NCBI GenBank assembly: GCA_021767785.1
Contig: JAASSR010000014.1
Coordinates: 1-34,396 of the forward strand
Direction of reading: 5' to 3'
DNA length: 34,396 nt
Origin: Methanolobus sp.
GTDB taxonomy: Archaea > Halobacteriota > Methanosarcinia > Methanosarcinales > Methanosarcinaceae
Below the pieces are notes generated by a model. That model did no database searches and was not told where the DNA came from. It saw only the letters and a program-made list of their open reading frames with translations. Each line of letters begins with the position of its first letter. Positions within the stretch are counted from its first letter, which is position 1. Below, piece after piece: positions 1 through 16,554 of this stretch. Position numbers and translations under genes: made by a program.

Positions 1-942
1 TGTATAGTCACCCTTCTCAAGATTTCCTACGATCGTAGAAGTACTTCCTGTGGCCTGAAAATTATCCTGCTCCGGTATCGAAACCTTGACAGAGTAAGCC
101 TCGTTATTACCTACATTTGCAAGTGACAGAGAAACCTCACCTTCATCACTCTCTGAGTAGCTGAGGTCAAAGTCAGTGGTGCCCCCTACAAACATTCCTG
201 CTTTGGTCTTTATTTGTGTTGAATTGGAATTGTAGTCATCGAACTCCAGTGTAATGTCAAGCTGGTAAAGACCAGGATCCGCATTTACATCAGCCATAAC
301 GGAATACACTACTGTGGCTGATTCGTTAACCCCAAGGTAATTTATGTACTTGGTGTTGGATGAGTATACAGGAAGTATTACACCTGTGGATTCGTCCCAT
401 GAGATTTCCATATTCTTGAGTGGAGATGAACCTGTGTTGGTTATGACAAACTCAAGAGGTTCCACGGTTGCAACATCTATGCTGGAGTCACTGATAGTGA
501 CGATCTGAGCATATTCCTTACCCTGCACTTCTACTTCAAGGGTTTTTACAGAGCTTGAATCAGATTCGCTGTCCCTAACAATTACATCGATATCATAGGT
601 ACCATCCGATACATCAGAATCTACTTTCAGTTTGAACTTCAGAAGTGTTGCATCCTCTTCATCCTGACGGGCTTCAAGAAATGAGATAGTTTTGGTAAGT
701 GACTGTCCAGAAACATCACTGAAAGGATAATCTGCATCGATACTTACAATTACATCAGAAAGGTCATTACTACCCTCGTTCTGAAGACTTAAGGTTAATT
801 CTACGGTCTCACCAGGTCTTGCTGGATACGGACTCTGTGTCATCAGATCCACATTCACACCTGATGAACCTGCATTTATACCTGCTGATGCGCTTGACAT
901 TGATAGTATCAGCACTAAAACCAATAAAAGATTTCTTCTCAT
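1..942 (-). CDS. Secreted COG1361/CARDB-like S-layer-type protein (C-terminus cut by window edge)
   Basis: The frame is open from an ATG at 942 to the window edge (314 codons, no stop), so only the N-terminal part is present. Residues 1-22 form a signal peptide (MRRN, a Leu/Val-rich core, then SMSSASA). The rest is a series of beta-sandwich repeats typical of COG1361/CARDB proteins, with phrases such as PARPGETVELTLSLQNEGSN and FVITNTGSSPLKNMEISW. Such proteins are exported and cell-surface bound, and in methanogens often sit beside MacB/LolD-type ABC genes. The start lies 5 bases after the stop of the upstream ABC ATPase, and GTGAGG near the end of that gene can serve as its ribosome binding site, so the two are co-transcribed. 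An ABC permease may follow beyond the window (inference). The exact ligand is unknown. Confidence 0.85.
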   Translation of the reverse strand, partial: MRRNLLLVLVLILSMSSASAGINAGSSGVNVDLMTQSPYPARPGETVELTLSLQNEGSNDLSDVIVSIDADYPFSDVSGQSLTKTISFLEARQDEEDATLLKFKLKVDSDVSDGTYDIDVIVRDSESDSSSVKTLEVEVQGKEYAQIVTISDSSIDVATVEPLEFVITNTGSSPLKNMEISWDESTGVILPVYSSNTKYINYLGVNESATVVYSVMADVNADPGLYQLDITLEFDDYNSNSTQIKTKAGMFVGGTTDFDLSYSESDEGEVSLSLANVGNNEAYSVKVSIPEQDNFQATGSTSTIVGNLEKGDYT

Positions 943-947
943 TGATA

Positions 948-1697
948 TCACATTGCCTCACGTTTTATAATCTCTATATCATCGATGGTTCCGTCTATGA
1001 TATGGACAACACGATCCGCATATTTTGTAAGATCAGGATCGTGGGTGATCATGATGATAGTTTTACCTTCTTTCTGGTGAAGGTCATTTAAAAATTCAAG
1101 AATGTAACTTCCCGTTTCACTGTCCAGGTTTCCTGTTGGTTCATCAGCGAGAATTATTTGTGGGTCTACTGCAAGGGATCTTGCAATAGCAACCCTCTGT
1201 CTCTGTCCTCCTGATAGTTGCGAGGGAAGATTATATTTTTTGTCAGAAAGAGATACAATATCGAGAAGTTGTTCTGCTCTCTTCCACGAACTATCGGCGT
1301 CTTCCTCCTGAAATTCAAGGGGAAGCATCACATTTTCTATTGTGTTCAAAGTAGGCATCAGATTGAATGTCTGAAAAATAAAACCAATGAGCTGACCTCT
1401 TATCTGAGCAAGTTCCGATTCACGCATTCTGGAAATGTCCCTGTTATTGAGTTGAACAATCCCCTTGCTCGGAAGATCCAGACATCCCAATAGGTTCATC
1501 ATTGTACTCTTACCGCTTCCACTGGGTCCCAGAATCACTACAAATTCACCGTGAAATATCTCCAGGTCAATACCTTTTAAAGCTGCAAAATCAACTTCTC
1601 CCATTCTGTAGATCTTCCATATGTCAGTAAGTCGCATGAGAGGACCTGAGTTTCCATTCTGGAATTCTTTATTTGATATATTGAGATTCTCGTCCAT
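948..1697 (-). CDS. ABC transporter ATP-binding protein, LolD/MacB family
   Basis: This is the ATPase of a MacB/LolD-type exporter or mechanotransmission complex, cytoplasmic and attached to a membrane permease. With the chosen start it has 249 residues: Walker [10 protein letters not shown] at 57-65, Q-loop Gln109, signature LSGGQ at 161-165, Walker B IILADE at 181-186 followed by PTGNLD, and H-loop His219. The longest frame would begin at a TTG at 1733; I chose the ATG at 1697 because GAGGT lies 5 bases upstream of it. The next gene (COG1361 protein) starts 5 bases after this stop, giving an operon. The gene is preceded by a long, structured untranslated leader (1775-1933), so post-transcriptional control is plausible. 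Substrate not deducible. Confidence 0.93.
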
Positions 1698-1774
1698 AAT
1701 AGACCTCAATTGTTCTGTAAAATAATTCTTCAATAATGTGTGAGATTAGATCCTGTTGATCATTATGTTGCTGG

Positions 1775-1933
1775 TTTTCGGATAAGAGACACCTGCCGGA
1801 TAGAAAGCATGTGCCTCTTATACGAAAAGGGGTTGTTGGTACATTGGTGGCACCTAGCTGGATGTGGTTGGATTTAAGGGGGGGGAGGTGCCACCTTGGT
1901 GGGTGGTGCCTGCCAGATGATCACTGACAGGCA
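1775..1933 (-). ncRNA. Three-hairpin leader RNA upstream of the ABC operon (candidate cis-regulatory RNA)
   Basis: Read on the minus strand the RNA forms (i) a 9-bp stem, 1933-1925 with 1915-1907; (ii) a perfect 10-bp stem GGTGGCACCT/AGGTGCCACC, 1895-1886 with 1855-1846, whose 30-base loop contains C8; (iii) an 18-position stem, 1828-1811 with 1792-1775, with an 18-base loop, one G.U pair and one mismatch. Stems (i) and (iii) each contain a position that is a G.U wobble in minus-strand RNA but a C/A mismatch in plus-strand RNA, which supports minus-strand transcription. GGCACC, present twice, could compete for the single GGTGCC, so alternative folds are possible. No known riboswitch class was recognised. 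Confidence 0.55.
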
Positions 1934-2007
1934 ATAACCGTGTAGGATAGTTTTGAATAAAAGAATACTTATTGGGAAAAAGCCATAAAATAAACAATAA
2001 AATCAAA

Positions 2008-2020
2008 TGAAGCTTTATAG
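2008..2020 (-). promoter_or_regulatory. TATA-like element CTATAAAGCTTCA for the ABC operon
   Basis: Minus-strand CTATAAAGCTTCA lies 311 bases upstream of the ABC start. The 12-base core (plus strand TGAAGCTTTATA) recurs exactly at 4247-4258 upstream of the secreted-protein gene ending at 4005. If used as a TATA box, transcription would begin near 1985 and include the whole hairpin leader. Confidence 0.4.
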
Positions 2021-2184
2021 AGAATAAAATAGAAAAACCAGAATTTATAAGTCACTCAAAAGCTTATTAAGACATAATAAGACTTCAAAAATTCCTAAAA
2101 AGATCTATTGGGCATCATATCTAAAAGATATAATTCTATCCGGAACTACCACACTAACATAATGAGAAAAATTAATAAGAAGGA

Positions 2185-3096: not shown

Positions 3097-4005
3097 TCAT
3101 TCAACCTCGAATATCGGTGCAATCCAGACATTTTGTGCATCCTGGGAAGGAACCCTGTCTGAATTATACGTTCCTTTACCCACCAGTTCTACTTCACCGG
3201 TACCCTTTGCAACTATCTCTATCCTGTCAGCCATTATGGCAACAGAAAAAGACGATCCTGACATGGATACATTACCATTGACATCAACATACGAGATTAT
3301 ATCATGATGACTTAACATATCTGATACAGGTACCCTGTGGGGCACGGATCCCCGCTCATATTCATACTCATTACCTATTACAACATCATCTGCAAAATCA
3401 ACAACAGAGAACTTACCTTCAGATAATGATAAACTAATATCGAAACTTCCCGACAATATTGCAATGCCACTTCCCTGAGCTACCAGAGTATTATTGCTCA
3501 TTTGTATGGGACCCGGAAGATATGTTTTGATACCATCCATAATGGGCTTCAATCTGGAATTTGCATCAATGATTCTCTCTCTCGATAGCTCAAGATATTT
3601 CTGCCTGCCAGAATCTGATGATGAGTTCTCGGCCATTTCAAAGTATTTTCTAGCCTCTGATACAAGAACGTCATAATCATATACCATCTGTTCAAGCTCC
3701 CGGACATCATTACCTTCTTCTTTAAGACGCCTGATGACATTATTCAGACGTTCCACAACTGTTTCTGATTTCTCAATATTGTCTTCAAGAAAGGATCTTC
3801 TGTCCTCAGAAGCAGATGAATACATAAAAAAGAACATGCGTTTCTCTTCAGGTGATTCTCTCATATCAAAAGGCGGAGGTAATAACAACCCCTCATGCTC
3901 CTGCCTGCCATCAGAATATTGTTGCATATCACCCGGCTTGCTCACACCTGAAATTACTACGAGCAAAATAAGGAGTAGCAGCACTATAAGAGGCATTCTT
4001 TTCAT
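3097..4005 (-). CDS. Secreted protein of unknown function, paralogue A
   Basis: I do not recognise the family. The 302-residue protein starts with a Leu-rich signal peptide (MKRMPL, core to about 20). Residues 66-155 are strongly helical and charged, likely a coiled coil, containing FLEDNIEKSETVVERL and LELSRERIIDANSRLKPI. Residues 165-302 are beta-rich, with repeating phrases GSGIAILSGSFDISLSLSEG and MSGSSFSVAIMADRIEIVAK. The gene at 4369-5250 encodes a clear paralogue with the same order of parts (shared cores: LADNIKKSEE/LEDNIEKSET, SEGKF..VDFA.D, SGSS..VAIM). The next gene downstream is a membrane-anchored winged-helix protein. Probably exported and cell-surface associated; function unknown. 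Confidence 0.75.
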   Translation of the reverse strand: MKRMPLIVLLLLILLVVISGVSKPGDMQQYSDGRQEHEGLLLPPPFDMRESPEEKRMFFFMYSSASEDRRSFLEDNIEKSETVVERLNNVIRRLKEEGNDVRELEQMVYDYDVLVSEARKYFEMAENSSSDSGRQKYLELSRERIIDANSRLKPIMDGIKTYLPGPIQMSNNTLVAQGSGIAILSGSFDISLSLSEGKFSVVDFADDVVIGNEYEYERGSVPHRVPVSDMLSHHDIISYVDVNGNVSMSGSSFSVAIMADRIEIVAKGTGEVELVGKGTYNSDRVPSQDAQNVWIAPIFEVE

Positions 4006-4368
4006 TTGACATCACATTCCTGAAACATGATCAATTGGCAGAAAACATGTATTCTTAAGCAGAGAGATATAGCAGCCTTAACTATTTTCTTCATTTTGAT
4101 ATATGTTAGTAATATAAATAAATACCCACGGTGCTGCTAAAGAACGCTGATCAAAAATATAGGCCTGCATAATCGTTTTGACTATTATGTGCACCTTTAT
4201 CAGTTAAGAGATACCGAGAAAAGGTATGAAAAATCAAAAGATTCAGTGAAGCTTTATAAGTATGTTAACAAGTAATCTATACGACAATATATTTGCAAAT
4301 AAAAATTACAGCATAACTGATCTTTTTTTACAAATCCTATAATATTTGTATATTTTGCAAATAATTAT
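4006..4368. other. Intergenic region upstream of paralogue A
   Basis: No gene is seen. On the minus strand it holds two possible TATA boxes: TTATAAAGCTTCA (4247-4259, identical in its 12-base core to the element upstream of the ABC operon) and a TTTATTTATATTAC-like stretch near 4110-4122. The DNA is AT-rich and has no strong hairpin that I could find. Confidence 0.5.
4247..4260 (-). promoter_or_regulatory. Shared TATA-like element TTATAAAGCTTCA
   Basis: Plus-strand TGAAGCTTTATAAG lies 242 bases upstream of the paralogue A start. Its 12-base core matches 2008-2019 exactly, and a degenerate relative (TGAAGCTTTTTTA, 5434-5446) lies upstream of paralogue B. It may be a shared promoter or operator of this envelope block. 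Confidence 0.35.
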
Positions 4369-5250
4369 TTATCGTTTCATATCAAATACAGGCGAAATCC
4401 ATATACCTTTCTCATTCATGCTTTCATTGGATAGCATATAGGTTCCGTTACCATATAATTCAACCTTCCCGGTACCAGTTACATTAAAGTTTATATTATT
4501 GCTCATAATGGCTACTGTCAGACTTGATCCCGAAAGTATGACATCACCCCGAACATCATTATAAGAGAGTATCTGCTGCATACCATCACCATGCGGTACC
4601 ATAACCTGTCCTGACTTAATTTCAGAGCCATTCAATTCCGTCGTATAAATATCCAGATCACCTGCAAAATCAACTGTTGTGAACTTACCCTCTGAAATAC
4701 TCAGATCAATATCAAGATCCCCTGATAATATAGCCATACCTGCCCCTGATGCATTCAGACTTTCATTTCCGTACAGAGTTAAAGGTTCCGGAAGATAAGA
4801 CTGCATTCTGGTAAATATCTTTTTTAGCTCCATGTCTGCATAAATGATCTTTTCCCTTGAAAGATACAGATATTTTTGTTCTTCAGAAAAGGAAGTGGAA
4901 TTATCGGCCTTTGAAAGATAATCTCTGGATAGAGACACAAGCAACCTGTAATTTTCAACCATCTCTTCCAGTTTCTTAACATCATTATCTTCTTCCATGT
5001 GATGAACTATATCCTCCAGATGGTCTGCCATTTCTTCTGATTTTTTTATATTATCAGCCAGGAACAACTTCTCATCTCCGGGGAAAGCAAGTTCTTTATC
5101 AGGCGAAGCTGTACCTACACAAGGTACATATTTTGAGAAAAATTCATGGCGTTCACTTTTGCCACCGGAATCTTTAGATGAGTCGGCCACGCCCATAATC
5201 AGTACAATGGAGATGAGAAACAATATCATAACAAGCGGCATTTTTTTCAT
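4369..5250 (-). CDS. Secreted protein of unknown function, paralogue B
   Basis: The 293-residue paralogue of the product of 3097-4005. It has a signal peptide (MKKMPL, core to about 21), then a charged helical region (about 60-150, with KLFLADNIKKSEEMADHLED and LYLSREKIIYADMELKK), then a beta-rich C-terminal half with GAGMAILSGDLDIDLSISEG and LSGSSLTVAIMSNNINF. It ends in a basic tail FDMKR. Several Asn-X-Ser/Thr sequons fit an exported glycoprotein. A 363-base gap separates the two paralogues, so B probably has its own transcript. The tandem arrangement indicates local duplication. Function unknown. Confidence 0.72.
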   Translation of the reverse strand: MKKMPLVMILFLISIVLIMGVADSSKDSGGKSERHEFFSKYVPCVGTASPDKELAFPGDEKLFLADNIKKSEEMADHLEDIVHHMEEDNDVKKLEEMVENYRLLVSLSRDYLSKADNSTSFSEEQKYLYLSREKIIYADMELKKIFTRMQSYLPEPLTLYGNESLNASGAGMAILSGDLDIDLSISEGKFTTVDFAGDLDIYTTELNGSEIKSGQVMVPHGDGMQQILSYNDVRGDVILSGSSLTVAIMSNNINFNVTGTGKVELYGNGTYMLSNESMNEKGIWISPVFDMKR

Positions 5251-16479: not shown

Positions 16480-16554
16480 GAGCGTGTGGCCTAGTCAGGA
16501 TATGGCGGCAGCCTCCTAAGCTGCAAGCCGGGGGTTCAAATCCCTTCACGCTCG
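16480..16554 (+). tRNA. tRNA-Arg (anticodon CCT)
   Basis: A cloverleaf can be drawn: acceptor GAGCGTG (16480-16486) with CACGCTC (16547-16553) and discriminator G16554; D arm GCC...GGC; anticodon stem GCAGC (16508-16512) with GCTGC, loop CTCCTAA giving anticodon CCT (16515-16517) for AGG codons; T arm with loop TTCAAAT and two G.U pairs. CCA is not encoded. No intron. It follows hdrB by about 70 bases. Confidence 0.95.

Follow-up and report, generated by a model that had tools for sequence, protein, structure and literature searches.

In a window of 34,396 nucleotides from Methanolobus sp., by which we mean the whole stretch of DNA analysed, the minus strand ahead of an ABC-exporter operon carries a ~160-nt element with conserved secondary structure and compensatory base changes, and judging by comparative sequence analysis it is probably a cis-acting regulatory, structured 5' leader of the operon mRNA. 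We favor this reading because of the covariation, the strand bias of G.U pairs, the co-occurrence with the operon and the fixed spacing between promoter and first stem, and further because of the adjoining ribosome-binding site, the selection on the small ORF behind it, the leaders at the same place in six other genera and the portability of the leader module. A sequence-only reading of this DNA had already proposed a three-hairpin leader here; it is partly supported by what follows, and it did not contain the small ORF behind the RNA, the usual presence of two copies, or the conserved promoter common to other genes.

Results

Inverted repeats were found at the three sites that had been named as stems, and the MFE and centroid structures of the minus-strand RNA both show three separate hairpins (-62.9 kcal/mol; Table 1). 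The fold is unusually stable (z = -7.69, with 0/200 shuffles equally stable), bearing out the claim of a structured minus-strand leader, whereas the plus-strand RNA folds less well (z = -2.62). Stem 1 does contain its U.G pair and stem 3 its G.U pair, from which the strand had originally been argued, and the argument holds when extended to 27 aligned Methanolobus copies, which contain 71 G.U cells versus 7 A.C cells; since these roles would swap on the opposite strand, the selected RNA is the minus-strand one. We rejected a plus-strand RNA on account of its poorer fold and the wrong G.U asymmetry.

RNAalifold recovers the three stems from the same 27-copy alignment. Standard pairs make up 97.8% of the pair cells and 14 of the 32 pairs have changed on both sides, a combination reached by 0/500 shuffles; the two copies in one genome are related, so that the sequences are not independent, and the changes occur in all three stems. 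When the 3' arms were slid as a control, just 39–46% of cells were paired. The stems are conserved and covary in relatives, the point on which the sequence-only reading had made itself depend.

The most conserved parts of the element in the alignment are its unpaired segments. The single strands separating the hairpins are conserved, G-poor and C-rich, the C-rich segments kept between stems being ACCACCC, AACCACATCCAGCC, TGTACCAACAACC and CTATCC; AACCACAUCC, UGUACCAACAACC and CUAUCC can be named as the unpaired parts of the RNA. The C8 run singled out earlier does lie in the stem-2 loop, but a special role for it finds no backing, as it is an insertion seen in the window only, with about CCCC as its counterpart in relatives. 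GGCACC repeats do stand beside both stem 1 and stem 2, but the one at stem 1 is not kept in relatives, where GGUACC, GGCAACC, GGCAUACC or GACACC replaces it; conservation is lacking for the suggested competition of these repeats for one GGUGCC, and the fold that prevails is the three-hairpin one.

Table 1. Features of the leader region and adjoining genes (window coordinates)
Feature	Position	Strand	Remarks
COG1361-like surface protein	1..951	-	truncated by contig end
LolD/MacB-type ABC ATPase	948..1697	-	Pfam ABC_tran 1e-31
Remnant spacer at small-ORF position of relatives	1698..1774	-	ORF lost here
Stem-loop 3, terminal stem	1775..1828	-	arms 1807-1828/1775-1796; 6/16 consensus pairs changed on both sides
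CUAUCC in stem-3 loop	1798-1803	-	conserved (alignment)
UGUACCAACAACC linker	1831..1843	-	unpaired, conserved (alignment)
Stem-loop 2	1846..1895	-	arms 1886-1895/1846-1855; 99.2% of cells paired; 3/9 pairs changed on both sides
AACCACATCC in stem-2 loop	1860-1869	-	conserved (alignment)
C8 run in stem-2 loop	1878-1885	-	insertion present in window only
ACCACCC	1896..1906	-	unpaired, conserved (alignment)
Stem-loop 1	1907..1933	-	arms 1924-1933/1907-1916; 5/7 consensus pairs changed on both sides
Predicted transcription start	1937	-	from TATA position; few nt either way
TATA/BRE-like box AAGTATTCTTTTATT	1956..1970	-	conserved in all copies
Proximal AAGCTT(CATT) site	2010..2015	-	at -41 to -45 from TATA motif in 27/27 Methanolobus copies
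Distal AAGCTT site	2060..2065	-	about 94 nt 5' of TATA motif
wHTH (DUF7343) protein with signal/TM segment	2185..3072	-	Pfam DUF7343 1.7e-17

The TATA/BRE-like box (AAGTATKCTTTTATTYAAA) lies 5' of stem 1, which follows the TATA motif after 38±1 nt in 25/27 copies; in the other two, the search expression for the motif matched a few nucleotides early. Given this position and fixed spacing, transcription would start within a few nucleotides of stem 1 and not near 1985, where the 5' end had been placed before. AAGCTT-like sites stand about 44 and 94 nt 5' of the TATA motif; among the Methanolobus copies whose extracted sequence reached far enough, most have the distal one at -91 to -95, and a CAATN6ATTG-like palindrome is found near the start in several copies; Methanosarcina-type genera have AAAAGCTTCATT at the distance of the proximal site from the TATA motif. 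Among 13 genomes the promoter motif AAGTATBCTTWTATT occurs 0–7 times per genome versus 0–1 for its reversed control, and once in the genome of the window.

The same motif is also found ahead of secreted coiled-coil proteins, a VTC-domain operon and a beta-helix lipoprotein, among the loci before other genes (L166, L169, L170, L173, L174, L177–L179, L181, L182, L184, L188 and L189). Most of the leaders of these other genes begin with a possible 5' hairpin, often with a CAATN6ATTG-like palindrome near the start, and the hairpins differ in sequence. The genes with this common promoter motif likely constitute an envelope regulon.

Comparison with relatives places the start of the ATPase at ATG 1697 after GAGGT instead of at TTG 1733 as assigned before; the best NCBIfam match of the protein is LolD_lipo_ex, below that model's cut-off. 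The order in most relatives is RNA, small ORF, ATPase, COG1361 protein and MacB_PCD/FtsX permease. On the 5' side of the leader, the wHTH gene is a conserved neighbor in Methanolobus and its product a candidate regulator. In most Methanolobus relatives a ribosome-binding site follows a few nucleotides after stem 3, and then the small ORF of about 54–78 codons. Neither Pfam nor NCBIfam has a match to this ORF; by its dN/dS, mostly 0.1–0.4 with 2 of 12 pairs near 0.6–0.7, it is under purifying selection. The small proteins (about 54–78 aa; loci L021–L035 and L066–L070, for example G042:C1:1743135-1743335 on the minus strand) have the consensus MKDTxKQFIxxR..YVASALIRKLTPEQMxRLLxISP, and many finish in DF(K/H/Q)W right before the stop, a sequence that might serve as a signal for arrest or recognition.

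Most genomes hold a second cassette of wHTH gene, RNA and related small ORF, situated upstream, ahead of a p302-like secreted protein. The window has lost it, and its leader ends 78 nt 5' of the ATPase start; no homologous small-ORF frame was found in the intervening spacer, and no small-protein match in G000. At 3097–5250 the window encodes two related secreted proteins of 302 and 293 aa, neither with a Pfam match and the latter with no NCBIfam match either; in relatives the corresponding genes are separated by a wHTH gene and an RNA copy, neither of which is present in the window.

The element is present in 19 of 27 Methanolobus genomes, which are exactly those with the ABC operon, and in 19/19 of these it lies consistently 5' of the same genes. 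The ATPase was counted as absent where no match reached E <= 1e-95, and in the eight genomes without it neither the element nor the small ORF was found; G047, which has the element, falls below this cut-off because the reading frame of its ATPase is broken. A DNA search of the family located the element in 13 further members of the genus, with two copies each, and the copies are about 2.5–2.9 kb apart where both sit on one contig. A covariance model built from the 27 copies brought in further, more distant ones, and the small-protein search added one genome whose leader that model had missed. A class-wide search gave matches in Methanosarcinaceae only, barring one 41-nt partial match in G227 that we take as chance. 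Reverse-strand matches of the covariance model within the same elements reflect the self-complementarity of stem 3.

In six other Methanosarcinaceae genera the orthologous ATPase is preceded by the same TATA motif and, behind it, a structured leader, and the AAAGCTTCATT site recurs there in most of them. A fold z < -2 was obtained for 19 of 25 leaders outside Methanolobus, many of which are terminated by a GAGGCAYC/GGRUGCCUC hairpin. Because the leaders differ between genera in length and shape, sequence contributes less to the case for their homology than do promoter, position and terminal hairpin. UACCACC was rejected as a universal motif, being present in just 8 of these 25 leaders. In Methanosarcina-type genomes the leader lies 200–440 nt 5' of the ATPase start, and its 5' segment is able to pair either locally or distally, the two being mutually exclusive. 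These exclusive pairings are not universal: L129 has no distal partner and the L143/L148/L154 group no local one. In L155 and L156 (g7 genomes), stem-1 CCUCCUCUCAAGGUGG is fully complementary to the downstream CCACCUUGAGAGGAGG, again exclusive with the local stem, and by its sequence this pairing is possibly a switch.

One Methanosarcina-type genome, G081, has two tandem Methanolobus-like copies ahead of unrelated genes (L065, G081:C1:2214000-2232000), which we take to be a gene for a DUF1566-like protein and an operon of DUF4405-like/FAD flavoprotein genes. This locus suggests that a leader module was transferred; with two copies preceding unrelated genes, we regard the module as portable. 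A transposase-like gene lies near the tandem leaders.

Discussion

Let us consider how such a leader might work. The conserved TATA box ahead of stem 1 would direct the start of transcription, and the transcript would fold into the three hairpins supported by covariation, with conserved C-rich single strands between them. In most relatives the terminal hairpin ends a few nucleotides before the ribosome-binding site of the small ORF, with the ATPase, COG1361 and permease genes behind it. Control would then perhaps be post-transcriptional and in cis, with a ligand or RNA-binding protein recognizing the conserved unpaired segments and thereby altering start-site access beside stem 3, or mRNA stability, and with it the output of the operon. 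The trigger might be a ligand, a protein or temperature. The common promoter and the upstream AAGCTT sites might add transcriptional control, possibly via the neighboring membrane-anchored wHTH proteins. In the window, where the small ORF and its Shine-Dalgarno sequence are lost, the ATPase would be the leader's direct target; alternatively, this copy may be decaying.

We looked for two alternative folds that such a mechanism might use. Neither the GGCACC competition nor the Methanosarcina-type pairings are general, as described above. Masking of the Shine-Dalgarno site 3' of stem 3 by a C-tract 5' of that stem is predicted in many copies, and we rejected it since it is not stronger than in 40 dinucleotide shuffles per leader.

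Other readings of the same element need to be weighed. It might be a free-standing sRNA with its own promoter, whose C-rich strands base-pair elsewhere, with ribosome-binding sites that are G-rich, the operon being incidental or served by another promoter. The promoter at stem 1, the conserved C-rich unpaired segments, the two copies per genome, the G081 copies ahead of unrelated genes, the large distance from the ATPase in Methanosarcina-type genomes and the many intergenic sRNAs reported from M. mazei and M. psychrophilus (PMC5378194, PMC3510493) would all suit an sRNA. We nevertheless consider it unlikely, given that no U-tract was found 3' of stem 3 in the Methanolobus copies, that a few nucleotides separate the RNA from the ribosome-binding site serving a conserved ORF, and that linkage to the operon is strict in seven genera.

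A second possibility, to which we assign a rather low probability, is that the structure is a passive 5' end, protecting the mRNA or keeping translation at a constant rate without sensing anything. Long structured 5' UTRs are common in Methanolobus psychrophilus, where 24% of mRNAs are reported to have a 5' UTR above 150 nt (PMC5378194); this makes it plausible that the element is a leader, and possible that its role is passive. Other genes under the same promoter also start with a hairpin at the 5' end, unlike this one in sequence; however, the strongest conservation lies in the unpaired segments, beyond what protection would need. Finally, the inverted repeats could be protein-binding operators in DNA, the RNA fold being a by-product. 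The promoter region does contain repeated AAGCTT sites and, in several copies, the CAATN6ATTG-like palindrome, but compensatory stem changes, with G.U tolerated and A.C not, would not be seen at DNA sites, and we reject DNA inverted repeats as the explanation of the stems; operators are a very improbable account of the element.

Returning to the cis-regulatory leader, we can extend it to a scenario in which a new, Methanosarcinaceae-specific riboswitch-like or protein-responsive leader family couples an envelope signal to a MacB-type exporter and a small protein, within a promoter-defined secreted/envelope regulon; as a whole we hold this to be doubtful. The small ORF and the common promoter do hint that methanogens may have an envelope regulon. 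As relatives of the leader occur in genetically tractable Methanosarcina species, and covariation is strong and the promoter position fixed, its function is directly testable.

How does the element compare with known RNAs? To our knowledge, archaea have so far yielded few structured cis-regulatory RNAs, and our literature search found no description of a leader at this ABC operon. With Rfam 15 the window gave no match at curated or permissive thresholds apart from a tRNA gene at 16480–16554, in keeping with the earlier statement that no known riboswitch class fits, and the leaders of the other genera matched no Rfam family. Like the leaders and riboswitches in Rfam, the element is a structured region 5' of a transporter operon and has unpaired segments that are conserved; it differs in matching no Rfam 15 covariance model. 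The bacterial Downstream-peptide motif is likewise a structured RNA directly 5' of a short conserved ORF. It has another structure and gave no cmscan match, whereas here an ABC operon stands behind the small ORF; the motif is one of the 104 listed in PMC2864571. The long 5' UTRs of M. psychrophilus, of the same genus and likewise structured, are reported to include predicted stem-loops over ribosome-binding sites, some of them temperature-dependent (PMC5378194); searching the main text of that paper by terms gave no mention of ABC transporters. Those UTRs are individual predictions, whereas the element described here is a covarying RNA kept across the genus. Like sRNA162 and sRNA154 of M. mazei, it would belong with the structured regulatory RNAs of Methanosarcinaceae; those two differ in being trans-acting and encoded at other loci. 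The element is, by these comparisons, a new RNA family of a known kind of leader.
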